Shown here one piece after another: positions 16,493-36,097 of a stretch of 64,000 nt of DNA. Made by a program: the position numbers and the translations under genes. Within the stretch, counting starts at the first letter, position 1. Every line of letters begins with the position of its first letter. The DNA is from an uncultured Roseburia sp. (GTDB lineage: Bacteria > Bacillota > Clostridia > Lachnospirales > Lachnospiraceae). The notes beneath the pieces are model-generated. The model made no database searches. It was given only the letters and a program-made list of their open reading frames with translations, and had not been told where the DNA came from. Where the stretch lies: positions 62,001 to 126,000 of the forward strand of contig CANRYS010000003.1 of NCBI GenBank assembly GCA_947644305.1, written 5' to 3'.

Positions 16493-16508
16493 ATAGGCAA
16501 GTGTGCCG

Positions 16509-18421: not shown

Positions 18422-19389
18422 TAGAGATTAGTCTATGTATGATCGTAAAAAATGAGGAGAAAGTATTGGCAAGATGCCTTGACAGCATTGTTGACCTGAT
18501 GGACGAGATCATTATCGTGGACACAGGGTCCACGGATGCGACGAAAGAGATCGCGGCAAGGTATACCGATCGGATCTATGATTTTGAGTGGGTGGAGGAT
18601 TTTTCAGCGGCAAGAAACTTTTCCTTTTCCAAAGCCACCAGAGATTATATTTATGCGGCGGATGCCGATGAGGTTCTAGACGAGGAAAATCGGCAGAGAT
18701 TCCGGGAACTCAAAGAACTGCTTCTGCCGGAGATCGAAATCGTTCAGATGAAGTACTGTAACCAGTTGTCCCAGGGAACGGCATATAACTTTGATGAGGA
18801 ATACCGCCCGAAGCTCTATAAGAGACAGCGGGAATTTGTGTGGATCGAGCCGGTGCACGAGATGGTCCGCCTGGATCCGGTGGTATATGACAGTGAGATC
18901 TGCATTCAGCACATGCCGGAAAGCCTTCACAGCGGCAGAGATTTTCAGGTCTTTCAAAAGCAGATCAAAAAGGGGAAGCGGCTGTCAAAGCGTCTGCATC
19001 ATATGTATGCCATGGAGCTTTTCATATCAGGAGGAGATGCGGACATTCTGGAGGCGGAGACCTTTTTTGCAGCCTCGGTAGAAGATGCCTCCCGCAGCAT
19101 GGATGAGGTCCGGGAGGCGGCATGCGTTGCGGCGAAGGCGGCTAGGCTCCGGGGAGACAGCCATGGCATTTTGAAAATGTGCCTGAAGGATCTTCTGTCA
19201 GAAGGTTCCTCGGAGATGTGTTATGAGCTGGGAGAGTATTTCTTTGCCAGAAAAGATTACGTCGAGGCGGCGATGTGGTATTATAATGCGGTTCACGAGA
19301 CCGAGAGTGTTCTGGATATCCGCACGACGGAACTGGCAGAAAAAAAATATCAGGAGTGCTTGACTTTGAGCGGACTCCAGGATTTATAA
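18418..19389 (+). CDS. Family 2 glycosyltransferase with C-terminal helical (TPR-like) region
   Basis: The 323-residue protein begins ISLCMIVKNEEKVLARCLDS and continues IIIVDTGSTDAT, then YAADADEVLD (the DxD-type nucleotide-sugar/metal site) and WIEPVHEMV, a pattern of SunS-like GT2 enzymes. The C-terminal ~120 residues are helical and look like TPR repeats (YELGEYFFARKDYVEAAMWYYNA). This combination is common in Firmicute GT2 proteins that modify peptides or proteins, or act in surface glycans. The acceptor is unknown. It overlaps recJ by 4 bp. Confidence 0.88.
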   Translation: MIEISLCMIVKNEEKVLARCLDSIVDLMDEIIIVDTGSTDATKEIAARYTDRIYDFEWVEDFSAARNFSFSKATRDYIYAADADEVLDEENRQRFRELKELLLPEIEIVQMKYCNQLSQGTAYNFDEEYRPKLYKRQREFVWIEPVHEMVRLDPVVYDSEICIQHMPESLHSGRDFQVFQKQIKKGKRLSKRLHHMYAMELFISGGDADILEAETFFAASVEDASRSMDEVREAACVAAKAARLRGDSHGILKMCLKDLLSEGSSEMCYELGEYFFARKDYVEAAMWYYNAVHETESVLDIRTTELAEKKYQECLTLSGLQDL

Positions 19390-19420
19390 TAGAGAAAATA
19401 CCAGGAAATGAGGGAAATGG

Positions 19421-20347
19421 ATGTCAGAAAAATTAGATCATCTGCGGGGGGAGATCAATAAGGTAGTAAAGGGAAAAGCCGATGTGGTGGATAAAGTACT
19501 CTGTGCCATGCTGGCGGGAGGCCACATTTTGCTGGAAGACATTCCCGGTGTGGGGAAGACGACACTTGCGATGACTATCGCCAAAGCTATGGCGTTGACC
19601 TACCGTCGAGTCCAGTTTACACCGGATGTACTTCCCAGCGATATCGTGGGCTTTTCCATGTACAATGCACAGTCGAAAGAATTTGAGTACCGGGAAGGGG
19701 CGGTGTTTGCCAATCTGTTTCTCGCGGACGAGATCAACCGTACCTCGCCGAAGACACAGTCTGCGCTCTTAGAGGCGATGGAAGAGGAAAAGGTGACGGT
19801 GGATGGTGTGGAACACCCGCTGCCTGCGCCCTTTACGGTGATCGCCACGGAAAATCCGGTGGGTTCATCGGGAACCCAGATGCTTCCAGAGTCCCAGTTG
19901 GATCGCTTTATGGTATGCCTTTCCATGGGATATCCGGCCCACGAGGACGCGGTAAATATTTTGAAAAATGATGGTTCCAAACCTCTCCAGGATCTGCGGG
20001 AGATCCTGACGGTGTCGGAGTGGCAGGCATTGAAGGTGCGCGCAGAGAACTGCTACGTCAGTGATGAGATATACGATTATGTGGTCAGGCTCACCGAGCA
20101 GACCAGGGAAAATGTGTATATCCTGCTGGGGGCGAGTCCCCGTGCCAGCATTGCGCTGCTGCGCATGGCCAAGGCGATGGCGGTCATGAGAGGCAGGGAT
20201 TACGTTGTGCCGGAGGACGTCAGGGATGTATTTTATGATGTGTTTGGCCACCGTGTGAAGCTGGGGACGAAAGCAAAGGCGGAAGGAATGACCGTGATCG
20301 AAGTGCTGATGCAGGTATTTGACGGGGTTAAGGTGGTGAAGCCGTGA
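19421..20347 (+). CDS. MoxR-family AAA+ ATPase
   Basis: The 308-residue protein shows AAA_3 motifs: LEDIPGVGKTTLA (Walker A), FLADEINRTSPKTQSALLEAMEE (Walker B and following helix), VIATENPVGSSGTQMLPESQLDRF (sensor 1 and arginine finger region) and a C-terminal lid with LGASPRASIALLR. MoxR ATPases act as chaperones with DUF58 and membrane partners, usually in envelope stress or maturation. The DUF58 gene overlaps its end by 4 bp and a TgpA-like transglutaminase follows, which is the standard three-gene set. Confidence 0.95.
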   Translation: MSEKLDHLRGEINKVVKGKADVVDKVLCAMLAGGHILLEDIPGVGKTTLAMTIAKAMALTYRRVQFTPDVLPSDIVGFSMYNAQSKEFEYREGAVFANLFLADEINRTSPKTQSALLEAMEEEKVTVDGVEHPLPAPFTVIATENPVGSSGTQMLPESQLDRFMVCLSMGYPAHEDAVNILKNDGSKPLQDLREILTVSEWQALKVRAENCYVSDEIYDYVVRLTEQTRENVYILLGASPRASIALLRMAKAMAVMRGRDYVVPEDVRDVFYDVFGHRVKLGTKAKAEGMTVIEVLMQVFDGVKVVKP

Positions 20348-21351
20348 AACGCTTACGATACATGTTGGAATTTATATTTTTATTTGTGGCAAATGGGATC
20401 ATGCTCTGGTTCTTTCGGGGGTATCTGAATCTTTTGATCGCTGTGGCAATGATCCTGCTTTTTTTCTATGCCTTCTTTTCCGTACATCTGGTGAAAAAAT
20501 ATGTGTCGCTGGAACTAAAGGCACCGGCGGAGGAAATCCCTAAAAATACAGAATTCTTTATCCGGATTCGGCTGGGGAACCGCTGCTGGTTTCCCTTGGT
20601 GACGGCAAAAGTGTTTTTGCGGACAGGAAACACTTTCGTGGGCGCTCTGGCGGAGAACGTCCTTGCTCTGCCGCTGAGACCGGGAAAGGCAGTAGAGATA
20701 CAGTATCCGCTAAACTCAGCTTATGTGGGAAATGTGGAAGTTTGCTCTGAGAAGATTGTTTTGTATGATCTGCTGGGCTTTCACCGTGTGACAGTAAAAA
20801 AACAGGCGGCAGAAAGCGTATATATCCTTCCTGCAGGGGGGAGTGAGGAAGAATTTGTGCTGAATGATTATGAGACAGGTATGGATGAGGTAGAGGAGAG
20901 CAGGCTTTCCGGCAGCGATTTTTCCGACGTGAGCCAGGTCCGGGAGTACATTCCCGGTGATGCCATGAAAAATATTCATTGGAAACTCTCTGCCAAGAAG
21001 GATATTCTGATGGTGAAGGAACGTTTTCATATGTCCTCTCGCAAATTATTGGTGGTGCTGTCTCTCGATAAGGAGGAGGCGGAAAAGACCGATGCGGCAG
21101 TGGAGCGACTCTTTTCTTTCGGAACATTCTGCATCTCAAACCGCGTGCCGGTGACTCTGTTCTGGTGGAGCGACAGGTATCACGAGATCCGACAGGAGAC
21201 GGCGGAATCTGGGGATGATTGGAGACAGATGATGACCCGTCTGTTTCACGATCAGGCGGGAAACGGGTATGTGGAAGAACAGTTTCGATCGGGACATCCG
21301 GGGAAGGGATATATTCTTGTAAAAAATGACAAGATCCGAGCAGTAGTATAA
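20344..21351 (+). CDS. DUF58 membrane-linked protein
   Basis: The GTG start overlaps the MoxR stop. The 335-residue protein has two N-terminal TM segments (about residues 9-45) and then the DUF58 signature: SGSDFSDVSQVREYIPGDAMKNIHWKLSAKKD, spanning residues about 195-225, followed by LMVKE. A VWA-like fold is expected in this family. It works with the MoxR ATPase and the transglutaminase downstream; the exact biochemical role is not established for the family. Confidence 0.93.
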   Translation: MKRLRYMLEFIFLFVANGIMLWFFRGYLNLLIAVAMILLFFYAFFSVHLVKKYVSLELKAPAEEIPKNTEFFIRIRLGNRCWFPLVTAKVFLRTGNTFVGALAENVLALPLRPGKAVEIQYPLNSAYVGNVEVCSEKIVLYDLLGFHRVTVKKQAAESVYILPAGGSEEEFVLNDYETGMDEVEESRLSGSDFSDVSQVREYIPGDAMKNIHWKLSAKKDILMVKERFHMSSRKLLVVLSLDKEEAEKTDAAVERLFSFGTFCISNRVPVTLFWWSDRYHEIRQETAESGDDWRQMMTRLFHDQAGNGYVEEQFRSGHPGKGYILVKNDKIRAVV

Positions 21352-21393
21352 ACGATACGTGCTGTCGGCTTTGATGTGATGTGCAATAAGGCA

Positions 21394-21414
21394 AAGGTGA
21401 ACTGCGTTCACCTT
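21394..21414. repeat. Perfect 9-bp intercistronic hairpin
   Basis: AAGGTGAAC and GTTCACCTT surround a TGC loop, between the DUF58 gene and the transglutaminase gene. There is no T-run. It could stabilise the upstream message or modulate translation, since GGAGG of the next gene lies 6 bases after it. Confidence 0.6.
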
Positions 21415-21430
21415 GCGAATGGAGGAAGCT

Positions 21431-23854
21431 ATGGGGATTTTTAAGAAAAACGAACAAAAGGATCTGCAGATCACGATTTCCGAGGGAATCCGTATGGGAC
21501 GTCCTCTGGTTACAGGGCGCCAGAATGCCCTGTTTAGCTGTGTCCCCAAGGGGATTTTAGTATATATGGTGGTTTTTGGATCGCTGGGAGGCTTTCTGTC
21601 TGCCTTTAACGTGGAGTGCACCTACCTTCTTCCGGGAATCCTTCTGCTGATTTTCGCTCTGTATTTTAGCGGATTATTTGCCTTTCGCAAGAGCCGCTAT
21701 AAGGATATCGGATATATCGTATTTTTTGTGATTTATGTCATCGGGATCTATCTGTTTAAAGCCTACGTCAACAGCGGATTTGCGGCGATCGTTAATATGG
21801 TGAGGCAGAGGGGGGAGATGTATTTTGATCTGAATACCGGCAATGAGTTTGCGGAAAATATCGACAACCGGTACCTCACGGTTACGATTACTCTTATTTT
21901 TATCGGGATTTTTGAGGTTCTGTTGTTAAACATCTTTGTATCGAATTATATGAGCCTAAAATTGGCGGTATTTCTAGCGGTACCTATGTATGGCATTCCG
22001 CTGTATTTCGAGGTGGAGCCGGATCTTCCCTTTACTCTGTGTATGCTCGGTGGTCTGATGGGGATCTGGATCTTCAAGAACAGTGGACATTTTAGTGACG
22101 GCAGCAGCCGGAAGCGGTTTGAACAGGAGCAGAAGGGAAAGGTGCCTGAGCTGACCTATACCCAGGACAATCACGTATATGGTGGTGTTCTTCTGGCAGT
22201 TTTGTGCTGTGTGCTTTTGGTGGGTGTCTTTACTAGTTTTTACACGGAACATGATTTTGAAAAAAGGAAAGGGGTCAATTCTTATAAGGCGGCGACAGAG
22301 GATGGCGTATCCGGGTTTTTGATGATTGGATTCCGCATCTTTTTCCCGAATTATTATCAGTCCGGCGGCATGAGCGGCGGTTACCTGGGGAATATCTCTG
22401 CCCTCCGTCCCTCGAATGAAACCCATCTGATCGTGGAATTTGTACCTTATGATACGAATCCAGTCTATTTGAAAGCCTATACCGGAGTACAGTATACCGG
22501 AGACCGTTGGCTGAATGGTTATACTCTGACCGGGACGGAGTTTGGCAATTCTCCCTATTTTAGAGTGGAGAGCATGGAAGAAGAGGTGAAGCAGTTAGCA
22601 GGTCTATATAAGAAACAGCCAAAAAAATACGGAAAAGGGCTTATGAAGATCACTAACCGGGCGGCCAATCCCAATTATGTCTACTATCCCTATTTTACGA
22701 AGTTTGATGATTACAGCAAATATACCAACAACAAAGATCAGATATTTTTGCCGGGCAGCATCAATGAGACAAAGGAATTTACCTATTATCCCAATATCAA
22801 TTATGATGCAGAGATCCAGGAAGCGGCTTCTCTGGTTCCGGGGATGGAGATGGTTTCAGGCATGGCAGCGTATACACTTGTTCTCCCCAGTAGCGAGGCG
22901 GCTGTGGACCGGTTTATCCAGGAGGCAGGAATAGAACAGGGAGATGCGGATGCGGTACAGAAGGTAGTAGAGCATTTTCACAAAGAATATTCTTACAGCT
23001 ACAGTCCAGGAAGGGTGCCCAGAGGGGATGACTTTGTGAACTATTTTCTGGAGGAGAATAAAAAAGGGATCTGCTCCCATTTTGCCTCAGCGGCAACATT
23101 GATCTTCCGAAGACTGGGCATTCCTGCCAGGTATGTGGAGGGCTATGCCTTTGGCTATGGACAGATTATGGCTTCTGAGAAATCTGATCTAGAAGAAAAA
23201 TGGTATCGCGGTCACCGGCTTTTGAAAGAAGAGGCTGCCAGGATAGTAGAAGTAAAAGATTCCAATGCCCATGCCTGGGTGGAAATCTACCAGGAGGGGA
23301 AGGGTTGGATGATCGTGGACCCGACGCCGGCGGTATCCGATGAAGGCGTGGGCAGAAATGGCGGGCTGCTGAATTCTGTGAGAAATTTCTGGGAAAATTC
23401 TCCTGGGTTTAACATCGACGGTGATCTCTCTGGATTTAATCTTGGGTTCCTAAACTCCGGTGGCGTCCGTCTGGCTGCGGTCGGTGTAGTGGTATTGGCT
23501 CTTTGCCTGTTTTTTGTCAGATTTGTCGTGATCCGAATCAATCGCTTCAGCCGCTGGCACACACAGGATCTGAGAGGAAACCTGCTCTGGTATTATGGAG
23601 AATTCTGTCGGAAAAAGAGCCGCAGGGATAAGGAATTTGGGCGACTTTCGGTGCCCTCAGAACAGATTCATTACCTGATGGAAAAGTGTGATTCGGGGAA
23701 GAAAAAGAAATCAGTTCCGCTGGACACAGACCGGGTGGTGAGATTATTAGAAGAGATTTGTTTTGCGCCGGGAGAGCCGGACAGAGAAGATTATCAGTAT
23801 GTTATCGAGGCGCTGAAAAGGATGAAAAGAGGTACATTTAAAAACTCAAAATAG
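21431..23854 (+). CDS. TgpA-like membrane transglutaminase
   Basis: The start at ATG 21431 is supported by GGAGG five bases upstream. The ~807-residue protein has six or so N-terminal TM helices (to about residue 270) and an external transglutaminase-like domain with catalytic Cys in GICSHFASAATLIFRRLGIPARYV, His in NAHAWVEIY and Asp in MIVDPTPA. A further TM (VVVLALCLFFVRFVV) is followed by a cytoplasmic DUF4129-like tail. These proteins are thought to act on cell-surface proteins or peptidoglycan peptides. It ends the MoxR-DUF58 operon and is followed by a terminator. Confidence 0.92.
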   Translation: MGIFKKNEQKDLQITISEGIRMGRPLVTGRQNALFSCVPKGILVYMVVFGSLGGFLSAFNVECTYLLPGILLLIFALYFSGLFAFRKSRYKDIGYIVFFVIYVIGIYLFKAYVNSGFAAIVNMVRQRGEMYFDLNTGNEFAENIDNRYLTVTITLIFIGIFEVLLLNIFVSNYMSLKLAVFLAVPMYGIPLYFEVEPDLPFTLCMLGGLMGIWIFKNSGHFSDGSSRKRFEQEQKGKVPELTYTQDNHVYGGVLLAVLCCVLLVGVFTSFYTEHDFEKRKGVNSYKAATEDGVSGFLMIGFRIFFPNYYQSGGMSGGYLGNISALRPSNETHLIVEFVPYDTNPVYLKAYTGVQYTGDRWLNGYTLTGTEFGNSPYFRVESMEEEVKQLAGLYKKQPKKYGKGLMKITNRAANPNYVYYPYFTKFDDYSKYTNNKDQIFLPGSINETKEFTYYPNINYDAEIQEAASLVPGMEMVSGMAAYTLVLPSSEAAVDRFIQEAGIEQGDADAVQKVVEHFHKEYSYSYSPGRVPRGDDFVNYFLEENKKGICSHFASAATLIFRRLGIPARYVEGYAFGYGQIMASEKSDLEEKWYRGHRLLKEEAARIVEVKDSNAHAWVEIYQEGKGWMIVDPTPAVSDEGVGRNGGLLNSVRNFWENSPGFNIDGDLSGFNLGFLNSGGVRLAAVGVVVLALCLFFVRFVVIRINRFSRWHTQDLRGNLLWYYGEFCRKKSRRDKEFGRLSVPSEQIHYLMEKCDSGKKKKSVPLDTDRVVRLLEEICFAPGEPDREDYQYVIEALKRMKRGTFKNSK

Positions 23855-23863
23855 CAGCATATG

Positions 23864-23899
23864 GAGCTGTCTTAATTACAGAGGCAGTTCTATTTTTTT
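23864..23899 (+). terminator. Rho-independent terminator ending the MoxR operon
   Basis: A 9-bp stem (23864-23872 with 23882-23890, two G-T pairs) is followed by seven Ts. Confidence 0.75.
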
Positions 23900-23969
23900 G
23901 TCTTTTACAGGGACAAAATATCTGTGATTTGTCGTTTTATGTCGAAAATTGCGATGAAAAGTTCTAGAC

Positions 23970-24000
23970 TTTAATTGATGTATCAGATACTATTTATAAT
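23970..24000 (+). promoter_or_regulatory. Possible promoter of the RiPP cluster
   Basis: A perfect -10 box TATAAT (23995-24000) lies 56 bases before the likely first start. The -35 is weak: TTTAAT at 19-base spacing, or TTGATG at a 14-base spacing that is too short. A specific regulator may be needed. Confidence 0.4.
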
Positions 24001-24040
24001 ATAAAGAATTAGAAAATATATTATAAATTTTAAAGGAAGA

Positions 24041-25342
24041 TTGAGTGAAATTATTATGGATTCTAATGAAAAGGTGGGTTTTAATTCCAGAGTACGTTTA
24101 TTAAAAGGTGAGAATTGCACTTTATTAGCAAATATGGATAATGGCGAGTGTCTGTTTTTGTCTAATGAGTGTGTAAATATAATAGAAAAGTCAATAGAGG
24201 AAGATCTAACATATTATCAGTTAATTGAAGCCATAGAGGATAAAGCGTCGAAAAATTATATGGCTAAACTTATATTAAAGCTAGAGCAATTGTGTATGTG
24301 GAACGACATGGATATAGAAAATATGAAATCAGAGTTTTTAAATTTCTCTATAGACATTACAAACAATTGTAATTTGAGATGTAAACATTGCTGTGTTAGT
24401 GCTGGTGATCAAAAAAACGGATCGGATTTATCAACTGAGAAAATGCTTACGATCGTAAAAAGTATTGCCCGGTTAAAGCCGGCAAGTATAACAGTTTCCG
24501 GAGGGGAACCCTTATATCGGGAAGACTTTATAACAATTACGGATCAAATCAGGCAATATTATAAAGGGACCCTTATATTGATGACAAATGCTACTTTGAT
24601 CACAGAGTCCCTGGCAAAATACATATCAGAAAAATATGATGCAGTAGATATTAGTATCGATGGAATTGACGAGGAAACTTGCAGCATCTTAAGAGGAAAA
24701 GGAGTTTTTGAAAAAGCTTTAAAAGGGCTTAAATTGTTGAAAGCATATAATATGAGAATTTCTGCCTCCATGGTCTTATCTAAAGAAACCAAAGAATTAG
24801 GTAATCAATTTTTAGATTATTGTAAAAATACATTACATGTGAAAGGAATTATTCGATGTTTTGAGGATACCGGCAGAGGAAATGATAATAAAAAAATGCT
24901 TGAAATCGATGATAATGATTGCAAATATAAAAATAAAGAAGATCTGGAAAAATATTTTCTTGATCATAAAATCTCTCGTGTGCAACCTCAAATTTTTGCA
25001 TGTAAGGGGGCCAGAACAGAATTTCAGATAAACCATTTAGGAGAAATATTCCCTTGCGCATCTTTTATGGAAAATGAGTTTAGTTTGGGAAATATATTAG
25101 AAATTGAAGATTTAAGATTATATTTTGACAGGGGAGAATATAAAAAAACAGAGGGATATAAAAGATTTTATTCCTGGATGCCATTTAATCAAAAGGAGTG
25201 CGGTGAATGCAATAAACAATTACTATGTTTTAGTTGCGCAAATACAGTAAGAAAAACTGTAAATCATAAGGATTTTAAAAAATGGTGTAAGTATAATAAC
25301 GAATATTTTGATATGTATTGGAGATGTCATGGGACTATTTAA
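24041..25342 (+). CDS. Radical SAM/SPASM peptide maturase 1
   Basis: Up to 433 residues. Residues 16-90 look like a PqqD/RRE-type precursor-binding domain (LLANMDNGECLFLSNECVNI with a downstream helix). The radical SAM core has C110, C114 and C117 in NCNLRCKHC, then VSGGEPLY and LMTNATLI. The SPASM region has FACKGARTEFQINHLGEIFPC and CGECNKQLLCFSC, the auxiliary [4Fe-4S] ligands. Together these are the features of enzymes that install thioether or C-C links in ribosomal peptides. TTG at 24041 is very close to AAAGGAAG; ATG at 24056 is an alternative. GC is far below that of flanking genes. It overlaps the second radical SAM gene by 14 bp. Confidence 0.88.
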   Translation: MSEIIMDSNEKVGFNSRVRLLKGENCTLLANMDNGECLFLSNECVNIIEKSIEEDLTYYQLIEAIEDKASKNYMAKLILKLEQLCMWNDMDIENMKSEFLNFSIDITNNCNLRCKHCCVSAGDQKNGSDLSTEKMLTIVKSIARLKPASITVSGGEPLYREDFITITDQIRQYYKGTLILMTNATLITESLAKYISEKYDAVDISIDGIDEETCSILRGKGVFEKALKGLKLLKAYNMRISASMVLSKETKELGNQFLDYCKNTLHVKGIIRCFEDTGRGNDNKKMLEIDDNDCKYKNKEDLEKYFLDHKISRVQPQIFACKGARTEFQINHLGEIFPCASFMENEFSLGNILEIEDLRLYFDRGEYKKTEGYKRFYSWMPFNQKECGECNKQLLCFSCANTVRKTVNHKDFKKWCKYNNEYFDMYWRCHGTI

Positions 25343-26315
25343 TATATGGGTTACACATAGTTGTAATTTAAATTGCAGTTATTGTTATGAATCTGAAATA
25401 CGAGAAGAGATGAGCTTTGATCAAAAGCTATTTGATGATTTAATACTTTTTATTGTAGAAACCAGTAAAGATTGGGAAGAAGTGATGATAAATTTTCACG
25501 GCGGAGAACCATTGATGAATTTTGAATTTATCAAGAGGGTTGTTTGCAAATTGGAAGATATCAATCTCAATTGTTTTTATTCTCTTACTACGAATGGAAT
25601 ATTATTAAATGATTCGATTATAAATTTTTTTAGTAAATATGGTGTTTCTTTATCTGTTAGTATTGATGGGGACAGAACAAGTAATGATATAAGCAGAAGG
25701 GACTGGAAGGGAAAAAGTGTGTATGACATAGTAGTAAAAAAAATATCTTTATGTTTAGAAAAAGGTATTGAGCCCAGAATCCGGATGACGGTAGTTCCTG
25801 AAAATGTACAGTACTTATCTCAGGGGGTTAAGAACCTTTGGGAAATGGGGTGTATAACATTGGTGGCAGCACCCGATTTATTTTCTCCCAGGTGGTCGGT
25901 GGAGAATATCTCTCTATTGGAACGGGAACTGAAAAAAATTAGAAATTTTAAAAATAATGGACAAAATACTTTTGATTTTTTTGATCATGATCCCTACAGG
26001 AAAAAGGGAAAATGTTGTGGAGGGGTTTATGAATACAGCATTTCGCCCACAGGTGATTTATATCCATGTACTTTTGTATATGGAAAAAAAGAACACTGTA
26101 TAGGAAATGTTAAGACAGGAATTGACGATAAGAAAATAAAAAATCTCAGGGCTGTTTACTCCAAATATAACTACAACTGTATAAATTGTAAAGACAAAGA
26201 TTATTGCATTGGGAACAGATGTAAATATATAAATATGGCAGTATGCAATAATTTTCTGGAAGCGCCTAAACTGGTCTGCCAGCTGGTTAATTTATTGAAG
26301 TCGGTTAAAAAGTAA
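25329..26315 (+). CDS. Radical SAM/SPASM peptide maturase 2
   Basis: The start at ATG 25329 (GGAG nine bases ahead) is preferred over 25308, giving 328 residues. Cysteines C12, C16 and C19 in HSCNLNCSYCYE bind the radical SAM cluster, and NFHGGEPLMNFEF and LTTNGILL continue the core. The C-terminal SPASM part has KCCGGVYEYSISPTGDLYPC and CINCKDKDYCIGNRC. There is no N-terminal recognition domain, so it may rely on the first enzyme's domain. Two different SPASM enzymes in one operon suggest two separate modifications of one peptide, or an obligate pair. Confidence 0.88.
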   Translation: MGLFNIWVTHSCNLNCSYCYESEIREEMSFDQKLFDDLILFIVETSKDWEEVMINFHGGEPLMNFEFIKRVVCKLEDINLNCFYSLTTNGILLNDSIINFFSKYGVSLSVSIDGDRTSNDISRRDWKGKSVYDIVVKKISLCLEKGIEPRIRMTVVPENVQYLSQGVKNLWEMGCITLVAAPDLFSPRWSVENISLLERELKKIRNFKNNGQNTFDFFDHDPYRKKGKCCGGVYEYSISPTGDLYPCTFVYGKKEHCIGNVKTGIDDKKIKNLRAVYSKYNYNCINCKDKDYCIGNRCKYINMAVCNNFLEAPKLVCQLVNLLKSVKK

Positions 26316-26344
26316 ATCTATTATAGAGCATAAAGGAGGTACAT

Positions 26345-26590
26345 ATGAAGGTTGATAATATTATGGACCAATTAGAATTGGAAGATCAATTTGATATTGA
26401 GACACAGGGATGTCTGGACGACTGTGAGGAGTTTTTCCAAAAAACTAATGGGGATTGGGCAGTAATAACAAGAACCGGAGAGTTTAAAGCTAATGGCAAA
26501 GAGAGTATCGCTGAAATAAGAAGAATTAAAAATATTTTTGGTGTCTATTGTTATCGCAAATTTACGGCTAAAACTACTGCCTTATGGTAG
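26345..26590 (+). CDS. Candidate RiPP precursor peptide (81 residues)
   Basis: An excellent ribosome site (AAAGGAGG) precedes ATG. The protein is acidic in its first 30 residues (MDQLELEDQFDIE ... LDDCEEFF), which looks like a leader. It becomes basic and ends in a short FGVYCYRKFTAKTTALW tail. Cysteines are at positions 23, 27 and 69 only, so it is not a Cys-rich thioether precursor of the usual kind; Tyr, Lys, Trp or Thr could be the modified residues. Position and size, directly after two maturases and before a protease and exporter, make it the best precursor candidate. I do not recognise the family. Confidence 0.6.
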   Translation: MKVDNIMDQLELEDQFDIETQGCLDDCEEFFQKTNGDWAVITRTGEFKANGKESIAEIRRIKNIFGVYCYRKFTAKTTALW

Positions 26591-26664
26591 TATAATTTTT
26601 GAAACTAATTAATTTGAAATTATAATAGGTTTACTTTTTAATATTATTGTATGAATAGCTAAAT

Positions 26665-27576
26665 ATGAATATAGTTGTAATGGATGATTTTGGAGAAAGA
26701 AATAAGAATTCACATGGTGAAAGAGTGGTACGTACCTTTTATAAATATAATAAGTCAAGTGTAACGATTCAGATCATCTCTGTCAGGGCGATGGGAATCA
26801 TAGAATCTTTTCAATGCCTTTTAAATATGAGCTTTGATATCCTTTTATTGTGTTTTACAATTAAAGATAAATCTATTTATAATCAAATAGCGGAATGGAT
26901 TGAATTATTAGTAAGCAAAAGAGCTATTGTTATATGTTCCTGTTCCAATAATACAAAAGGAGAAGATTTTGGATTTCCAGCAAATCATCCAGCAGTGCTT
27001 GGAGTCGTCCAAGGGGCTTTTTTAGCTGCTGACCAATTTTATTTTGATAACAATAGTAAAAATAGCAAAGGTAAATGTTATATACATGCAGATGCAGCGC
27101 CGGAGTTTATAAAAATTTCGGAAAATCAATATTGTATTTTTGGCGGCACAAGTAAAGCAGTCCCTAAATTTGCCGCAGGTTTGGTGAATGCATTAGAGCT
27201 GGGAAAGGCTGATAAAAGGAATATTGCAGATTATTTAAGAAATTACTCCAGTTTTAAAGACGACATTTTGTTTAAACAATGTAAGGAAGGAAAGATTTGG
27301 GATGTAGAAAAGACGGAAGTAAAAACTTTGATGAAAATAGTAAATGTTTTAAATGAATATCTTACTGAACCTATTAATGCAATTGAGTTTAAAGATGTCA
27401 GCATAAATGACATATGGATTGCAGAAGACAATTTTGCAGAAATATTAATAAATTTGTTTGAACGTTTTGATTTGCAGCTTCAAATTGAGGACTTGCATTT
27501 TTGCGAGTTTATGTCTGTGCATAGTTTAGCAAGATTTATAGAAAAACAGGGAGTACATTATAAAAATGAGATGTAG
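26665..27576 (+). CDS. Cytoplasmic subtilisin-like protease fused to an acyl-carrier-like domain
   Basis: The 303-residue protein has no signal peptide. The S8 family triad is visible: Asp near 7-8 (VVMDDFG), His17 in NSHGERV, and Ser163 in FGGTSKAVPKFAAGLVN. SCSNN (about 92-96) supplies the oxyanion Asn and PANHPAVLGV is also typical. At about 200 residues the catalytic part is short. Residues ~218-303 look like an acyl carrier protein, with a four-helix pattern ending FERFDLQLQIEDLHFCEFMSVHSLARFI, but the position of the phosphopantetheine Ser (DSL) reads DNF. It probably removes the leader of the modified peptide. The ribosome site is weak. The following ABC gene overlaps its end by 11 bp. 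Confidence 0.75.
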   Translation: MNIVVMDDFGERNKNSHGERVVRTFYKYNKSSVTIQIISVRAMGIIESFQCLLNMSFDILLLCFTIKDKSIYNQIAEWIELLVSKRAIVICSCSNNTKGEDFGFPANHPAVLGVVQGAFLAADQFYFDNNSKNSKGKCYIHADAAPEFIKISENQYCIFGGTSKAVPKFAAGLVNALELGKADKRNIADYLRNYSSFKDDILFKQCKEGKIWDVEKTEVKTLMKIVNVLNEYLTEPINAIEFKDVSINDIWIAEDNFAEILINLFERFDLQLQIEDLHFCEFMSVHSLARFIEKQGVHYKNEM

Positions 27577-29233
27577 CATTGGTAATATTAAATTAAAAGC
27601 TGGACTTACATTTTTGTGGAAATATAAAATTAATTTTTTGTTACTAATTATAATTTCTATTTTAGGATCCTCAATTTCTTATATTAATCCATATTTGAAC
27701 ATGTTGATTTTTGATGTTGGAATTGGTGAAAAAAATATTAAACTTTTTCTCATTGCTATAGATGGTATATGTATCGTATATGTTATACAAAACGTCTTTT
27801 CCATTATTAAAACGCTTTATAGTAAAAAAATAAATTATAAAATGGAGAAGGCGCTTAAGAACAGTGTTTTGGATTATGTATTGTTTACATCTAAAGAATT
27901 AAAAGAGGGGGAGATCAATGCACTTTTTAATCATGATGTAAATATTTTTTTGACACTTGTAACTTCAGTTGGACAAGAAGTATTTACTGATATGGCGGGA
28001 ATTATACTGGCAGCCAGCTTTTTGATAAAAATAAATTTTAAGATGGCTGTTTTAGTAATGTTTTTGGAAGCGGTTATTTTGATGATCCGGCTTAAGAGTA
28101 ATAAGATCCTTGGTAAAAAAAGTGAAAAGACCAGGAATAGTTTTATCGATACAGCAGGAGTAGAAAATGAAATAATCTTAAATTACAAAAGCATATGCAG
28201 TCTTGGGGCGGAAAAATATATTGTATCAAGGTACAATAGAGTTTTAAAGGCTAATTTTCGTGAAGAATATGAAAAAAGCAGATTTTGTAGTTATTTAGGA
28301 GCTGGATTATCGATTTTGTCAAATATAATCAGTAGTACTATATTATTGCTTGGTGGTTTAGGAGTGATAAGAGGTCATATGACGATAGGTCAACTGGTAT
28401 CATTTTTCCAATACACGTCGATGTTTATAAGCTCATTGACGTCATTAACCGGAATACCATCCGAACTGTCTGCTAATATTGCTTCTATAGAAAACGTTCT
28501 GGAGATATTGGGGATTGAGAGAGAAAAAGGTATTGCTGAGGAGAAAGGATTAAGAAAAATTGATCAGATAGAGATTAAGGATTTAACTTTTTCATATACG
28601 GATAAGAGTTTGATTTTTAATGGTTTAAATGTTATCTTTAAGAAGAATACAATAAATTATATAATTGGTAAAAGTGGGATTGGTAAAACCACGTTAGCAA
28701 ATTTATTGCTGAAAAAGATAGAAACAAAAGAAAATTATATCTGGTTTGATGAAGAAGAATTAAATTCATTTGGAAAGAGACAACTGGCAAAATATATATC
28801 CTGGGTTTCCCAGGACTCCATTATTTTTAATGATACAATATGGAATAACATTACTTTAGGGGAAGCGGCAGAAATGGAGGAAATAATACCAATTTGTAAA
28901 GAAAGCATGATATGGGAAGATATACAAACTATGGAAAATGGCTTAAATACCGTTATACATGGTTTTGGTGATAATTTATCTGGAGGCCAGATAAATCGGA
29001 TATGTCTGGCAAGAGCGATCTTTATGAAAAAACCTATCATAATTATAGATGAAGGAACGTCGGGGGTGGATAAGGCTACAGAAACAAAATTAAAATTAAA
29101 TCTTAATTCTTTTTTTAAGGATAAGATTGTTATTATAATTACACATAGTGAAAATTTTATTTCAGAGACAGGTAATATATATGAAATAAAAAATCATAGG
29201 ATATATTTAAAAAACAGAGGTGACAGCAATTGA
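27566..29233 (+). CDS. ABC exporter (fused TM and ATPase domains) of the RiPP cluster
   Basis: The 555-residue half-transporter has about six TM helices in residues 1-290. Its nucleotide-binding domain has Walker A IGKSGIGKTTLA, signature LSGGQINR, Walker B IIIIDEGTSGVDKAT and the His switch IITHSEN. No C39 leader-peptidase domain is present, which agrees with a separate protease just upstream. It most likely exports the mature peptide as a homodimer. Very AT-rich. Its stop overlaps the start of the FtsX-type permease by 4 bp, linking the cluster to the next three genes. Confidence 0.9.
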   Translation: MRCSIGNIKLKAGLTFLWKYKINFLLLIIISILGSSISYINPYLNMLIFDVGIGEKNIKLFLIAIDGICIVYVIQNVFSIIKTLYSKKINYKMEKALKNSVLDYVLFTSKELKEGEINALFNHDVNIFLTLVTSVGQEVFTDMAGIILAASFLIKINFKMAVLVMFLEAVILMIRLKSNKILGKKSEKTRNSFIDTAGVENEIILNYKSICSLGAEKYIVSRYNRVLKANFREEYEKSRFCSYLGAGLSILSNIISSTILLLGGLGVIRGHMTIGQLVSFFQYTSMFISSLTSLTGIPSELSANIASIENVLEILGIEREKGIAEEKGLRKIDQIEIKDLTFSYTDKSLIFNGLNVIFKKNTINYIIGKSGIGKTTLANLLLKKIETKENYIWFDEEELNSFGKRQLAKYISWVSQDSIIFNDTIWNNITLGEAAEMEEIIPICKESMIWEDIQTMENGLNTVIHGFGDNLSGGQINRICLARAIFMKKPIIIIDEGTSGVDKATETKLKLNLNSFFKDKIVIIITHSENFISETGNIYEIKNHRIYLKNRGDSN

Positions 29234-31602
29234 AGATCATAGGTAGATATCTATTGCGGAATAAAAAAAGAACCAGCAAAACGATCTTGTGTATCGCGTT
29301 TTCTGTGATGCTGATGTTCTCCCTTATGCAGATGGGGGACGCATTGCTGAAAGAGTTTTATAATCTGGCTTTAAACGGACTGCATCGTGACGTAAGTATT
29401 ACCCGGATCACGTTATCTGAGATTGAAAAGATACATAAAATTGCGGATAGGCAGGCAGCAGCACAGATGTATACGATCTGGGTGGGTGATGTGGATCTGG
29501 AACAAAGGGCGAAAGCAGGCCGGATACTTGGATTAGAGGGGGATCTGGAATATTTTAAAGATTGTGAAATAATAGCCGGCAGGAAACCGGAAGAGACAGG
29601 GGAGATTATCGTTTCCCAAAGCCTGATGGAGTCACAGCCGGATTATTATAAGCCGGGAAACAGGGTGGAATTAAGCATATTTGATGAAAAGAACAGTAAT
29701 CACAAAGAAGCATTTACCGTATGCGGCGTGTTCTCTAATATAAAGGACGAAGGGGATATGATCTTTTCCAGCGTTCTGACGGCGGACCAACTGAGGAAGC
29801 GGTGGGGGCTTTCCGAAGCATCGGACAGTAATGCGGCGGCGGTAACGATCCATAAAGAAGAATATAAAGCGGATAAGATCGCGGATTTTTTATATGAAAT
29901 ACAGGAGGTCCTTTATCCAGAAGAGTCGGAAGAGAAAACCTATTTTTTCAAAGACCGGGTTCTTTGGAATGAACAAAAAAGCGCTCTCTATGAAGAAGAG
30001 GGGACCTTTACATCGGTGTCACAAACCCTTAAGCTCCTGACGATCATCATAGCGGCTGGGATGATGATATATGTTTATGGGGTTTTTCATATCAATGTAT
30101 TCCAGAAGATCCGATACCTTGGGATCATGAGATGTCTGGGCGGCGATAAGAAGACGCTGGCAGGAAATATTTTTGGAGAGAGCATGCTGATCTCCCACGC
30201 AGGTATTCTACTTGGAATCCTGGGAGGAAATGTACTGAACCAGTTTGTCGCAGACAAGGTGCTAAATGCGCTGATGAAGGTGGATTATTCTGTTCAGCTA
30301 AGACAGATGTGGGTTACCTATGCAGAAGTGTATCTGGTTGCCATTCTGCCCATCCTGATGGCGACCTTAAAGGTATGGCTGGGGGTAATAAAGATCTCAC
30401 CTGTTCAGGCGATGAACTTTGAGGAGAACTCAAAGTTCAGAAAACCTTCCCATGAAAGAAAGCAGACAAAACAAAAAAACATCCTACGGTATCTGGCAGG
30501 GAGAAATATATGGCGTAACCGCTCCCAGAGCTTTACGGTCATAGCGGTGATCAGTGTTACGCTCACTCTTCTGCTGATCATAGCAAATACTTTTTCTGTC
30601 GTCGACTTCACTCCCCAGAAGGGAAGACAGGATTTTTGCCGGTATGAAATAATTTTCGACTATGGGACAGCAGATTATTTCTGTGATCAGGATGTAGAGA
30701 ATTTCAAAGAGTTAGATGGTGTGGAAGAGGTCTATTCCCAATTTATAGCCAGGGAAATTAAAATACAGACAGAGAGGGACAGCCTTCTCGTGGTGTACAG
30801 CGATTCTTTATGGGAAAAGCTTCTGGAATACAATCCGGAGCTAAAGAACCTGGACTATGAGAACAAACCTGTATCCGTGGCATATAGCAGCACTGAATTT
30901 GATCTGGCGTCTTCGGTTACACTGGAGGGGGAAGACCAGGAAGAAAAAATAAAGATGCCAGTGACCCAGAAGTACGTGGGAACGCAGAGTCTGTTAGGTG
31001 AATTGACAGAAAACGATGATACGATCAAACTTATCCTGAATGAGAAAATGGCTGAAAAGACAGGAATTGGCACAGGGCAGTATTCCAGCATGTCTCTGGA
31101 GACCAACAGCCGGTTTGACAACGCACATTTTGAGGAATTTGTAAAAGAAAATCTAAAAAATGCATTGATTGTCCCGCTGAATGCTGAGAGTTCCGATGAA
31201 GATCAGTTACTGGCCATCATTTTTCTGGCATCTTACATATGCATCGCCTTCTTTGTATTTGTATTTTCTATGATAGAAAGTATGGTAGAATTTAATATGT
31301 TAAACAGAAGAAGTGAATACGGGATTATGAGGGCTCTTGGAATGAACCGCAGATTATATAAAAAAATGATCTGCCTGGAGAGTATCCGCTTAGGGTTTTA
31401 TGCAGTGATCATTGCAGTAATGGTATCTCTTTTTGCAAACTATTATTTTACTTCCCAGATCTTTCAGCAGGCAGAATTCAGTATCCTGGCGTACATTGTT
31501 ACGATTGTTATGCTGATGTCACTCATATTGGGAAAAAGCTACAGGACTGTCCACAAAAACATGAATACCAGTATCGTGGCAATGATCCAAAATAGAGAAT
31601 AA
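29230..31602 (+). CDS. FtsX/MacB-type ABC transporter permease
   Basis: The TTG start overlaps the preceding stop, with GAGGTG upstream. The 790-residue protein has an N-terminal TM (TILCIAFSVMLMFSLMQ), a large external domain, three TMs around residues 270-395, a second external domain, and three C-terminal TMs. It is thus a duplicated FtsX unit as in BceB/MacB-like permeases. IRYLGIMRCLGGDKK and RSEYGIMRALGMNRRLYKK are the conserved cytoplasmic loops. It pairs with the ATPase 98 bp downstream. Linkage to a peptide cluster suggests self-protection or peptide removal. GC is clearly higher than in the preceding genes. Confidence 0.9.
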   Translation: MKIIGRYLLRNKKRTSKTILCIAFSVMLMFSLMQMGDALLKEFYNLALNGLHRDVSITRITLSEIEKIHKIADRQAAAQMYTIWVGDVDLEQRAKAGRILGLEGDLEYFKDCEIIAGRKPEETGEIIVSQSLMESQPDYYKPGNRVELSIFDEKNSNHKEAFTVCGVFSNIKDEGDMIFSSVLTADQLRKRWGLSEASDSNAAAVTIHKEEYKADKIADFLYEIQEVLYPEESEEKTYFFKDRVLWNEQKSALYEEEGTFTSVSQTLKLLTIIIAAGMMIYVYGVFHINVFQKIRYLGIMRCLGGDKKTLAGNIFGESMLISHAGILLGILGGNVLNQFVADKVLNALMKVDYSVQLRQMWVTYAEVYLVAILPILMATLKVWLGVIKISPVQAMNFEENSKFRKPSHERKQTKQKNILRYLAGRNIWRNRSQSFTVIAVISVTLTLLLIIANTFSVVDFTPQKGRQDFCRYEIIFDYGTADYFCDQDVENFKELDGVEEVYSQFIAREIKIQTERDSLLVVYSDSLWEKLLEYNPELKNLDYENKPVSVAYSSTEFDLASSVTLEGEDQEEKIKMPVTQKYVGTQSLLGELTENDDTIKLILNEKMAEKTGIGTGQYSSMSLETNSRFDNAHFEEFVKENLKNALIVPLNAESSDEDQLLAIIFLASYICIAFFVFVFSMIESMVEFNMLNRRSEYGIMRALGMNRRLYKKMICLESIRLGFYAVIIAVMVSLFANYYFTSQIFQQAEFSILAYIVTIVMLMSLILGKSYRTVHKNMNTSIVAMIQNRE

Positions 31603-31609
31603 GGTGCTA

Positions 31610-31674
31610 AGGTTGAAAGAAATCTTTCAACCTATCAAGTTTGTGCGCCCACGCCCAAACTTGTGTGAGGCGCA
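31610..31674 (+). promoter_or_regulatory. Two consecutive intercistronic hairpins before the ABC ATPase gene
   Basis: The first is a perfect 11-bp inverted repeat (31610-31620 / 31623-31633). The second is 8 bp (31636-31643 / 31656-31663), and its loop (TGCGCC, 31644-31649) can alternatively pair with GGCGCA at 31669-31674. There is no clean T-run. The pattern allows competing folds just before the ribosome site at 31691, so it may adjust expression between permease and ATPase. Confidence 0.5.
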
Positions 31675-31700
31675 AAAAACATGCGCAAATGGAGGAAAAA

Positions 31701-32381
31701 ATGAAAGAAGTTATTTTAGAAAATGTCTCAAAAACCTATGGGACAGGTGTTAAAAAGCAGGAAGTCCTAAAAGGGGTTAATCTGGAGGTGGAAACCGGAG
31801 AATTCGTGACGATCTATGGTCCCAGTGGCGCAGGCAAAACTACGATTATGAATATTGTGGGAGGGCTGGATGACTTTGATGCGGGTGAGGTGATTGTAAA
31901 TGGTGAGAACATTTCCAATCTGTCAGAAACAAAACTTGCCCGGTACAGACGCAGGCATGTGGGATATATTTTTCAGATGTTTCATCTGATCCCGGTACTG
32001 ACGGTGTATGAGAATATTGTCTACCCCCTGCTGCTGGATAAATCTAAGATCGATGATGAGTATGTGGAGGAATTAATGAAGGATCTGGGTATCCTTGAAA
32101 AACGAAGTGCTTTTCCCAATGAATTGTCAGGGGGACAGCAGCAGAGGGTGGCGATCGCAAGGGCATTGGTAAACCAGCCCAATGTAATCCTCGCCGACGA
32201 GCCGACGGGAAATCTGGATGAAAAGACGGGGAATGCGGTGATCGATCTGCTGCTTTCGGGAGTTAAAAAATATCATCGAACTTTGATCATGATAACCCAT
32301 AACATGGAAATTGCCCGACGGTCGGATCGGATCTATCAATTAAGAGAAGGTAATTTGTATGAAATTTCGGTTGATGTGTAG
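31701..32381 (+). CDS. ABC transporter ATPase (MacB/LolD type)
   Basis: The start at ATG 31701 with GGAGG gives 226 residues; the longer frame upstream runs through hairpins and is rejected. Walker A is GPSGAGKTTIMNIVGGL, the Q-loop is YIFQMFHLIPVLTVYENI, the signature is LSGGQQQRVAIARAL and Walker B is VILADEPTGNLDE. This is the standard partner of FtsX-type permeases. Together with 29230-31602 it forms one transporter; the membrane protein overlapping its 3' end by 23 bp may be an additional component. Confidence 0.95.
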   Translation: MKEVILENVSKTYGTGVKKQEVLKGVNLEVETGEFVTIYGPSGAGKTTIMNIVGGLDDFDAGEVIVNGENISNLSETKLARYRRRHVGYIFQMFHLIPVLTVYENIVYPLLLDKSKIDDEYVEELMKDLGILEKRSAFPNELSGGQQQRVAIARALVNQPNVILADEPTGNLDEKTGNAVIDLLLSGVKKYHRTLIMITHNMEIARRSDRIYQLREGNLYEISVDV

Positions 32382-33780
32382 ATATATCTACAATAAGAAA
32401 AAACTTGCGATGATAGGTTTTGTCATTCTTCTCTCTCTGACAGGCATGTATGCGTTTTATGGTTTACTATTTTATCAGGCAAATGCGAATAAATGGCATC
32501 CTCTGGAGAGGATGGGGGATGGCTGGTATTATTATCTCAGCGATATTTCTTCGATGGAAGAAGATCCAGGGCTGGCTTACATCGAACATGATTTTAAAAC
32601 GCTGGACACAAAGTGGATTCATTCTTTTGATGGATATGATGTTTATCATTGTTCTGAGGAAGCTTGGGAAATGTATGATTACCAGTTAAAAAAGGGAGAG
32701 GATTTTTCCAAATCAGATCCTAATCAAGTCGTCATTTCCCAGGATCTGGAAAGAGAGCATCCCGTTGGCAGTACCATGCAGGTCAGGATATGGAATACAA
32801 ATTCATTTTATGGAAAACCCAAACCAATAAAAACGATCGAATGTACAGTGGCAGGAGTTATGAGACAGGATAAGATATTATTCAGTCAGACACCGGATAG
32901 TCCGGCGTTTAGTCACCGTATTTCAGAATCTATGTTTTCAGAAGCACGTGACGGAAGGCTGGATCCAACGATGGTCAGCCAGCTCTTTTTGAATCCCGCC
33001 TTTAAACTAGAGGATCTAAGCTGGTATCAACGCTCTTCTGGAATCTTCTTTCAGGCAGATGAGACTGAAATGATTAAAGTGAAGGAAAAATGTAATGATT
33101 ATGGGACGATTTATAAAGTCCGTGACATTCTTACACAGAATAACCCGATTTATTGGAAGGGAAGATATAAAAGTATAATTACAAGTGCATTTTTTTCATT
33201 ATTTTGTGTGATTTATCTGGTAGTGTGGCTTACCTGTGTACTGCGGGCAAACGAAAAAGATTTTGCTTACCTGACATATATCAATGGACATTTGACAGGA
33301 CGTCAGCGGAAGAAAAAAACCAATCAATACTGCAGCAAGATTTTTGCAACTGTCTTTTTGTTCATTCCACCAATCTTTTTTCTCTCTTTCATGGCATGGT
33401 TTCTGCCCAATGAACTGGATGGCTTTTGGGAGATGGAATTATTTATGCCTTTGATCGTTCTGGGGATTCAGTGTACGGTGTGCGTTCTGGGAGTCTTGTG
33501 TCTAAAGCTTGTGAACAGAAAATATGCACAAAAAGCCGCAGAATATCTTGAGAATTGTCCGCTTCAAAAATTATATATAGATGATCTGTCTGTGAAAGAT
33601 AATCTTGTTTTGGTTTTGGCCGCGCAGGGGTATAAATTCAGATGGTCAGAAGAATATGTGACATCGGTGTTGGAAGAACGGGAAGTCAGCTATTGTAAGA
33701 ACAGGCGGGCAGATATGCTTTCCCATGAAGAACGCATGATTATTAATAAGATAAGAGATGAATTATTGCAGAGGATATAA
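32359..33780 (+). CDS. Multi-pass membrane protein, FtsX-permease-like
   Basis: The 473-residue protein overlaps the ATPase gene by 23 bp. TM1 is near the N-terminus (LAMIGFVILLSLTGMYAFYG), followed by an external domain of about 230 residues and three further TMs (around 277-297, 328-350 and 363-385). A cytoplasmic tail of ~85 residues follows. The one-TM/external/three-TM layout is that of a single FtsX unit, but I do not see the usual conserved loop, so it is divergent. Its stop lies two bases from the end of the convergent flavodoxin gene, with no terminator between. Confidence 0.65.
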   Translation: MKFRLMCRYIYNKKKLAMIGFVILLSLTGMYAFYGLLFYQANANKWHPLERMGDGWYYYLSDISSMEEDPGLAYIEHDFKTLDTKWIHSFDGYDVYHCSEEAWEMYDYQLKKGEDFSKSDPNQVVISQDLEREHPVGSTMQVRIWNTNSFYGKPKPIKTIECTVAGVMRQDKILFSQTPDSPAFSHRISESMFSEARDGRLDPTMVSQLFLNPAFKLEDLSWYQRSSGIFFQADETEMIKVKEKCNDYGTIYKVRDILTQNNPIYWKGRYKSIITSAFFSLFCVIYLVVWLTCVLRANEKDFAYLTYINGHLTGRQRKKKTNQYCSKIFATVFLFIPPIFFLSFMAWFLPNELDGFWEMELFMPLIVLGIQCTVCVLGVLCLKLVNRKYAQKAAEYLENCPLQKLYIDDLSVKDNLVLVLAAQGYKFRWSEEYVTSVLEEREVSYCKNRRADMLSHEERMIINKIRDELLQRI

Positions 33781-33781
33781 T

Positions 33782-34321
33782 TCATTCTCTTAAATAATCC
33801 AATAAAGGGGTCAGATACTTCTTATCTGTCCAATCGCAGGTCTGCCCTGCAGCGCACATAAGAGCTTTCATCCACGGCTCATAGGTACTGGGGTCTTTTT
33901 TGGCTACAGATTTTTGCAACAGTCTGCACAAAGTTCGGTCTATGAATTTCATATTGCTCTCGTCCCATGCTCCCCGCCCATAAAAAAGAGGAATTTCTTT
34001 GAGATCGCCGGTTAGATTGTGCGCCTTGATCTCATTTAGGGCATCCTCGTCATAGGGAGACGCACCCACGCACAAGATGGCTGTTTTTTTATCCTTTAAT
34101 TTTCCGAAGTTTTTCTTTAAAAAGGATAATCCTGCTATGCCGGAGGCATAAATCCCGCCACACAGAAGGAATGTCTCGTATTGAACGGCATCATCTATGA
34201 CCGCTTTTGGTGTTTCAACACAGTCAAAAGCGGTCATTTCCTTAAGCCATTCGGCATATTTCTTTGTTGCTCCATATTTGGATTGATATAGGATGATTCC
34301 TTTATTATTGTTTATTATCAT
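33782..34321 (-). CDS. Flavodoxin-domain protein
   Basis: The 179-residue protein starts with the FMN phosphate loop [19 protein letters not shown] and has [18 protein letters not shown], matching flavodoxin_5/HemG-like proteins. Short Clostridial versions are often annotated as protoporphyrinogen-oxidase-like, but no heme genes are near, so the substrate is open. It overlaps the pyrG stop by 4 bp and is probably co-transcribed with it. Confidence 0.85.
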
Positions 34322-35931: not shown

Positions 35932-36068
35932 TTTTCCTCCTCCTTGCCGCCCTGTCTGTGGAAAGCGGCATCTATGTGTATATAAATTATGATCGGTTGG
36001 GTAAAAATACTTACTATATATGATGCTATGGATTGCTCCGCATTTTGTCCTTTTGACCCTATCGTCAT

Positions 36069-36097
36069 ATTATACTATTTTTGCAATGTTGTTTCAA
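36069..36097 (-). promoter_or_regulatory. Sigma-A promoter of pyrG
   Basis: On the minus strand, TTGAAA (36092-36097), 17 bases, TATAAT (36069-36074). The transcript does not start with the GGG run used for reiterative attenuation of Bacillus pyrG. Confidence 0.8.

Follow-up and report, generated by a model that had tools for sequence, protein, structure and literature searches.

The block of five genes at positions 24041-29233 of the Roseburia DNA analysed here (64,000 nucleotides; this whole stretch is referred to as the window) raises the question of which peptide it makes, and of how two dissimilar radical S-adenosylmethionine (SAM) enzymes share the work of making it. A sequence-only reading had described the block as a tightly packed peptide-natural-product pathway with an 81-residue candidate precursor, and this packing and the positions of the genes are borne out. 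As judged from the sequence comparisons, the block would represent a new family of ribosomally synthesized and post-translationally modified peptides (RiPPs), with a recognisable plan and unproved chemistry. We consider it rather probable that the second radical SAM enzyme (rSAM2), which resembles PapB and QhpD, would form a thioether from a cysteine to an aspartate or glutamate of the precursor, that a subtilisin-type (S8) protease would cut off the leader, that an ATP-binding cassette (ABC) protein would export the product and that an FtsX/LolD pair would protect the producer. The gene set, the precursor, its conserved residues, the exchange of the S8 protease for a C39 peptidase and an empty site in sister genomes emerge from the comparison of related loci. 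The features of the block and of its downstream neighbours are the following.

24041-25342, + strand: rSAM1, radical SAM/SPASM enzyme with an N-terminal domain of ~95 residues (possible leader-binding RiPP recognition element, RRE)
25329-26315, + strand: rSAM2, radical SAM/SPASM enzyme with the radical SAM core from its start, PapB/CcpM/SCIFF/QhpD-like
26345-26590, + strand: precursor peptide, 81 residues, leader ..DIETQG followed by CLDDCEEF ...; sequence CYRKFTAKTTALW
26665-27576, + strand: QhpE-like S8 (subtilisin) protease, with a C-terminal domain resembling acyl carrier protein (ACP) but without a conserved serine
27566-29233, + strand: ABC exporter, membrane and ATPase domains, no C39 peptidase
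29230-31602, + strand: FtsX-type permease (PF02687, 5.9e-19), probable immunity or second export module
31698-32381, + strand: LolD-type ATPase, partner of FtsX (LolD model 6.5e-66, under the cut-off)
32359-33780, + strand: membrane protein of unknown family, overlapping LolD, retained in sister genomes without the cluster
23830-29215, no strand: segment missing at the matching site of the sister genomes G659 and G654 (from alignment of both window flanks with those sites; left edge approximate)

The precursor gene is placed between the genes of rSAM2 and the protease, and the gene pairs rSAM1/rSAM2, S8/ABC and ABC/FtsX overlap. Since the FtsX-type open reading frame (ORF, from 29230) begins within the ABC stop, the unit is taken to extend to 33780. 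The start of rSAM1 is the TTG at 24041, and the ATG at 24056 may be the real start; the rSAM1 ORF of locus L070 starts at the counterpart of this ATG, and that of L071 retains the longer frame. rSAM2 runs from the ATG at 25329. The guanine plus cytosine (GC) content is 0.310 in 24041-29233 versus 0.483 on both flanks (14000-23900 and 33782-43000), well below the flanks as previously claimed, and the third-position GC is 0.26-0.32 in the five cluster genes, as against 0.40-0.50 in the three genes downstream (FtsX, LolD and the membrane protein). No Rfam element reaches its gathering score within 23500-34400, and the counts of promoter-like sites (52 versus 39.9 in shuffles) and terminator-like sites (10 versus 5.0) are not used as evidence.

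The same gene set is found in many other genomes. When the genome contigs are scanned with the rSAM1 alignment and the best 80 of 157 loci are kept (L087/G556, L089/G568, L090/G620 and L097/G608 being loci that share one contig), rSAM1, rSAM2, S8 and ABC occur on one strand within 9.5 kb in 29 of the 80 loci, and this recurrence is more than chance. All 29 complete loci hold a same-strand ORF with the pattern CxxD/EC (38-125 residues, outside the large genes), versus 9 of the 51 others, in agreement with the general RiPP plan including a predicted leader removal. The enzyme pair (rSAM1 at E<1e-20 together with rSAM2) is present in 36 of the 80 loci, and such an ORF is found in the fetched stretch in 33 of these 36 versus 5 of the other 44 (Fisher 9e-14, where the loci are related and not independent draws), or in 32 versus 5 when only 6.5 kb around rSAM1 is considered. 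The opposite-strand control gives 6 of 80 loci (1/36 and 5/44). Of the three loci with the enzyme pair but no such same-strand ORF, L073 and L085 are short contigs. The hosts include Lachnospiraceae, Ruminococcus, Butyrivibrio, Blautia, Acetivibrio, Clostridium, Clostridioides mangenotii, Tissierella and Paenibacillus. In G276, rSAM1 and rSAM2 are fused in one 753-residue ORF (identities 34 and 33%), in a locus which also holds a 62-residue peptide, FtsX, LolD, S8 and ABC. The locus in G131 is decayed: a protease fragment joined to LolD lies next to a precursor homologue, and this genome has no rSAM1 at E 1e-40. L079 looks decayed as well, with an ORF whose beginning resembles rSAM2 (by eye) and which continues into the ABC gene. 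L103 and L104, where S8 and an rSAM1-like gene are present and rSAM2 and a CxxD/EC ORF are missing, have been set aside. In L109, there is no rSAM2, and a leader-like small ORF lacks CxxDC, a suggestive single case. About 3 kb upstream of the decayed G131 locus, the stretch 403-8828 of L028 encodes, by eye, a C39-type ABC protein and two lanthipeptide synthetases of LanM-like type.

The precursor of the window is 88 and 93% identical to its counterparts in sister species and 39-49% identical to those of L028, L072 and L074, and its closest relatives (L072, L074, L075) align over the full length, with ..KT. close to the end. Alignment of homologues, which had been proposed for finding the conserved residues, shows that C23, C27 and C69 are invariant and D26 is nearly so (28 rows). 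The earlier statement that the peptide is not Cys-rich, so that sactipeptide or ranthipeptide chemistry is not obvious, does not hold, as it is the three cysteines that are conserved, with a CxxD spacing that falls in the PapB range (PMC9413430; this and the other papers are cited from excerpts). Among 44 tabulated precursors, the leader is always free of cysteine and a loose [VIAG]..[QE] always precedes the motif, the fourth position of CxxD/EC is D in 43 and E in one, and an extra cysteine is present in 39. This table is hand-picked, with some rows trimmed at a hand-chosen residue near the start, and it omits further paralogues in L078, L080, L097, L100 and L101, the peptides of L081, L095 and L096, the double-glycine-type peptides of L105, L106 and L108, and L115.

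None of the 28 precursors scanned is recognised by NCBIfam or Pfam (best matches at chance level, 0.0026 and 0.01), the window precursor has no match to TIGR04065, and its tblastn search against plasmids gives none either. In the order, 3 of 392 genomes are matched by the precursor profile A8; each match lies in a cluster, and each of the three had contributed to the profile. G608 and G620, with more distant precursors in their clusters, are missed, so the test is limited in reach. The window precursor alone (P0003) has one clear match beyond its own among the 299 genomes of the family, the decayed G131. Within this reach, homologues spread widely without radical SAM genes, a pattern that would have spoken against the precursor assignment, are not seen. 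Another small ORF as the substrate was considered and rejected: the gaps in 23855-26700 (+ strand, at least 20 residues) hold only two 24-residue frames overlapping the precursor, and the 81-residue peptide stands as the substrate.

Both maturases score over the Pfam cut-off for Radical_SAM (PF04055, 2.1e-24 for rSAM1), and their SPASM domains are slightly under the SPASM cut-off (18.5 and 18.8 versus 21.5 bits for rSAM1 and rSAM2). Conservation of the radical SAM and SPASM cysteines is complete or almost complete among 30 rSAM1 and 29 rSAM2 homologues, the CxxxCxxC and SPASM cysteines of rSAM1 and the cysteines of rSAM2 being invariant in the respective alignments. The description of two different SPASM maturases is upheld. 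The PapB model is matched by all 29 rSAM2 homologues (best 3.2e-69, window 5.7e-46), and the alignment of the window enzyme covers almost the full model length, with a score under the equivalog cut-off (157.3 versus 340 bits). PapB is followed by CcpM, SCIFF and QhpD, which are other thioether-forming enzymes; here the cut-offs are also missed (128.6 of 500 bits for CcpM, TIGR04068, and 117.7 of 453 bits for QhpD). PapB accepts Cys-Xn-Asp with n from 0 to 6 and refuses the reversed order (PMC9413430), and therefore bonds from C23 to D26 (n=2) or from C27 to E29 (n=1) would fit rSAM2 as a PapB-type enzyme.

The role of rSAM1 is less readily assigned. The MftC, StsB and WgkB models are all matched by 30/30 rSAM1 homologues at E 1e-10, and the best single model for the window enzyme is StsB (102.5 versus a cut-off of 625 bits). 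The rSAM1 profile aligns to Protein Data Bank (PDB) entry 5wgg, which we take to be CteB, from residue 16 onward, with the N-terminal part aligning weakly. It is possible, but somewhat unlikely, that the two enzymes have separate tasks, rSAM2 forming the Cys-Asp thioether and rSAM1 acting on the C-terminal TAKTTxxW tail by a Lys-Trp bond or a change of the terminal Trp. WgkB forms a Lys-Trp bond and MftC changes a terminal Tyr, and the match of all rSAM1 homologues to both models agrees with such tasks, as does the presence in the tabulated precursors of a loose [TS]xK after CxxDC (27/44), a terminal W (19/44) or any terminal W/F/Y (28/44). However, [TS]xK is absent in 17/44 and the terminal aromatic residue in 16/44, including L082 and L093, which retain rSAM1. 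A more far-reaching proposal, which we consider unlikely, is that of a new RiPP class in Clostridia and Paenibacillus, in which two dissimilar enzymes would share one leader-binding domain and make bonds of two kinds. One would be a Cys-Asp/Glu thioether in CxxDC, the other a carbon-centred change in the TAKxTxxW tail; the leader protease would be a subtilisin where other systems have C39, and in one relative it would form part of the exporter (the S8-ABC fusion).

A sactipeptide, in which one or both enzymes link cysteines to alpha-carbons within a thuricin CD-like two-enzyme complex, is unlikely. The StsB model, that of a sactipeptide maturase, is matched by all rSAM1 homologues, and the G276 fusion is compatible with a complex; in thuricin CD, TrnC or TrnD alone does not modify the precursors effectively, and the two form one complex mainly through their RRE domains (PMC12093266). 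Against this, rSAM2 is closest to PapB, CcpM, SCIFF and QhpD, whereas the sactipeptide model RumMC, matched by 28/29 rSAM2 homologues, is far weaker (best 3.1e-27 versus 3.2e-69 for PapB), and the most conserved non-Cys residue of the core is an aspartate at a PapB-compatible spacing. The thioether reading of rSAM2 can itself accommodate a complex of the two enzymes, which is suggested here too by the natural fusion.

The protease is sub-threshold for S8 in Pfam (16.7 versus 21.8 bits), but its family profile matches subtilisin-type proteases of the PDB (best 1.9e-32) and the triad D7, H17, S163 is invariant in 27 sequences. The best NCBIfam model for the scanned S8 proteins is QhpE (NF049966; 1e-5 for the window and up to 3.4e-33 for homologues), under the cut-off (25 of 165 bits for the window). 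No signal peptide or propeptide is seen by eye in the window protease, and no relative is found in the viral contigs searched with it. The proposed fusion to ACP is retained in outline and weakly supported. For the C-terminal domain, carrier proteins make up 16 of the 32 matches to PDB profiles with E<=10 (best 0.0043), the ACP model PRK07081 is matched by 4 of 27 members (best 3.6e-5) and TIGR04069 by 4 of 27 at E<=1 (best 3e-4, the window domain not among them), and hhalign gives a probability of 53 against the ACP-related protein of L066. The conserved carrier serine is lacking, which makes a carrier role unlikely; a docking role is our guess. In L121 (11677-14331), S8, the ACP-like domain (by profile coverage and eye) and the ABC exporter form one 884-residue ORF, and in L098 (11487-12899), S8 is joined to a LolD-type ATPase (470 residues). 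The L121 fusion resembles those exporters that carry their own peptidase, except that a subtilisin stands in for C39.

In the ABC protein, a membrane domain (PF00664, 1.9e-19) and an ATPase domain (PF00005, 4.2e-22) are the only ones over the Pfam cut-off, in keeping with an exporter without C39. In L105, L106 and L108, both radical SAM enzymes are present and no S8 match is found nearby at E 1e-6; the exporters of all three have C39-like N-terminal sequence by eye, and that of L105 aligns from residue 6 to the ABC-type bacteriocin transporter of PDB entry 4ry2, presumably PCAT1. The leaders of these loci are of the double-glycine type (EEELNDYYGG, EEELNAYYGG and, in L106, EEEMDTAYGK), and their precursors retain CxxDC (CCWHDC, CCMHDC, CCRHDC). 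The protease and the leader thus change together while CxxDC stays with the radical SAM pair, which points to CxxDC as the target of the pair and to S8 as the putative leader protease.

The FtsX-type gene has a counterpart in the same position in L075 (30% identical, 1e-110), and roughly half of the complete loci outside the sister species have LolD ORFs that are 44-54% identical. Within the genus, the protease is detected at E 1e-10 in 3 of 39 genomes, counting that of the window. The same block in the same setting is present in L070 and L071 (contigs of Eubacteriaceae and Eubacterium), with 88-94% DNA identity to the window in matching stretches >2 kb. FtsX directly follows the upstream gene (transglutaminase-like by eye) in G659 and G654; the five genes are absent there, and FtsX, LolD and the membrane gene are retained at 89-93% DNA identity. 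G658 retains only part of the membrane gene and the LolD end. From this pattern, the five genes are gained or lost together and FtsX/LolD can stay behind, which fits an immunity cassette. Composition favours gain over loss of the block, the two being separable only with a dated tree; acquisition by transfer, as read earlier from the low GC, is supported and not strictly proved. In other hosts, the cluster GC is lower than that of the flanks by at least 0.04 in 7 of 12 loci measured (L065 and L087 being on one contig), and this is not so in L078, L080, L082, L086 and L097.

The retention of FtsX/LolD also bears on what the product does. A signal or metal-binding peptide instead of a bacteriocin is improbable: LytTR or histidine-kinase genes in the fetched stretch of 11 of the 29 complete loci and up to 8 precursor-like ORFs in one locus would agree with it, but FtsX/LolD in cluster-free sister genomes resembles immunity, and SacP23, of a related gene set, acts on several Gram-positive bacteria (PMC10731318). 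The product is probably a bacteriocin, and it may be an unexplored antibacterial because that related gene set yields an anti-Gram-positive peptide.

For the bond type, the cut site, the division of labour between the enzymes and the activity, we infer the following course. The leader of the precursor would bind the radical SAM pair, most likely via the N-terminal domain of rSAM1, given that rSAM2 lacks a counterpart of it. The second enzyme, rSAM2, would then join a cysteine of C23-L-D-D-C27-E-E to a side-chain carbon of Asp or Glu, with D26 or E29 favoured, and rSAM1 would assist in complex with rSAM2 or introduce a further modification, which may concern C69 and the TAKTTALW tail. Leader removal near DIETQ|G would fall to the cytoplasmic QhpE-like protease, the ABC protein would export the product and the FtsX/LolD genes would protect the producer. 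The natural swaps (S8 for C39, split versus fused enzymes, differing tails) make this two-enzyme division of labour testable.

Several observations weigh against this pathway. rSAM1 is closest to enzymes of quite different chemistry (MftC, StsB, WgkB). Its N-terminal domain alone has no convincing match in direct family and PDB searches, and a leader-binding role of this domain is possible on the basis of a single structure-profile alignment. In the swap loci, rSAM1 of L105 is only the 313-residue core and that of L106 is split in two ORFs, so that L108, where rSAM1 is whole, is the clean case. Because the ORFs were picked by the CxxD/EC pattern, the invariance of this pattern among them arises by construction, the unbiased parts being the D/E choice, the opposite-strand control and the comparison with loci without rSAM2; such an ORF, whether by chance or for another reason, occurs in 5 of the 44 loci without the enzyme pair as well, and no CxxD/EC peptide is found in L098, which has both enzymes. 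FtsX/LolD could be an older neighbour, with third-position GC near that of the upstream gene. Finally, the window protease could be impaired by a deletion near the active site. That the window copy is decaying and its peptide left unprocessed is quite improbable, since the ~20 codons gone between D7 and H17 (26665-26760) relative to L070 and L071 are missing in frame, the triad is intact and the remaining genes are open.

Some further features of the window are seen by eye. A second AT-rich island (9619-12440, GC 0.34-0.39) encodes a DUF262-like protein, an ATPase and an HNH-type endonuclease, possibly a phage-defence set, and a large serine recombinase lies at 5602-7224. The region 48637-54480 includes a secreted 1331-residue S8-type protein followed by two near-duplicate leucine-rich-like proteins (52626-53507 and 53566-54480).

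When compared with known systems, the family has relatives of several kinds. Its description is not found in the literature searched, where subscription papers, which may hold one, are mostly outside the coverage; Rumal_0164 of Ruminococcus albus 7 is listed as a putative sactipeptide enzyme (PMC4289311). Thuricin CD shares two radical SAM/SPASM enzymes acting on precursors, but its bonds are those of sactipeptides and both Trn enzymes have an RRE (that of TrnD non-canonical), whereas rSAM2 has none (PMC12093266). The ranthipeptide freyrasin (PapA/PapB) shares an enzyme that is nearest to rSAM2 and a Cys-Xn-Asp substrate (PMC9413430); it differs by the six CX3D motifs of PapA, absent here, and by the second radical SAM enzyme found here. 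In the qhp operon, QhpD forms Cys-Asp/Glu thioethers, the subtilisin-like QhpE cuts the 28-residue leader off the cross-linked QhpC in the cytoplasm and the ABC protein QhpF exports it (PMC7876137). This maturation differs in that the product is a periplasmic enzyme subunit, that a monooxygenase, QhpG, takes part and that a second radical SAM enzyme is not mentioned in the excerpt (PMC7876137). Among the window ORFs listed, no QHNDH subunit or QhpG is recognised by eye, no model search having been made. The CLI_3235/CcpM gene set (TIGR04065, TIGR04066, TIGR04068, TIGR04069), which includes that of SacP23 of Paenibacillus polymyxa, shares a radical SAM/SPASM maturase, a subtilase, an ABC exporter and, less certainly, an ACP-related protein (PMC10731318). 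L066 is such a CcpM locus, with a QhpE-like S8 and ABC, in which CcpM and TIGR04066 are over and TIGR04065 and TIGR04069 under the cut-off. Compared with this set, the present family has two radical SAM enzymes instead of one, an ACP-like domain fused to the protease instead of a free-standing protein and a precursor of another family than the Cys-rich one, and the TIGR04066 protein belongs to the CcpM set.

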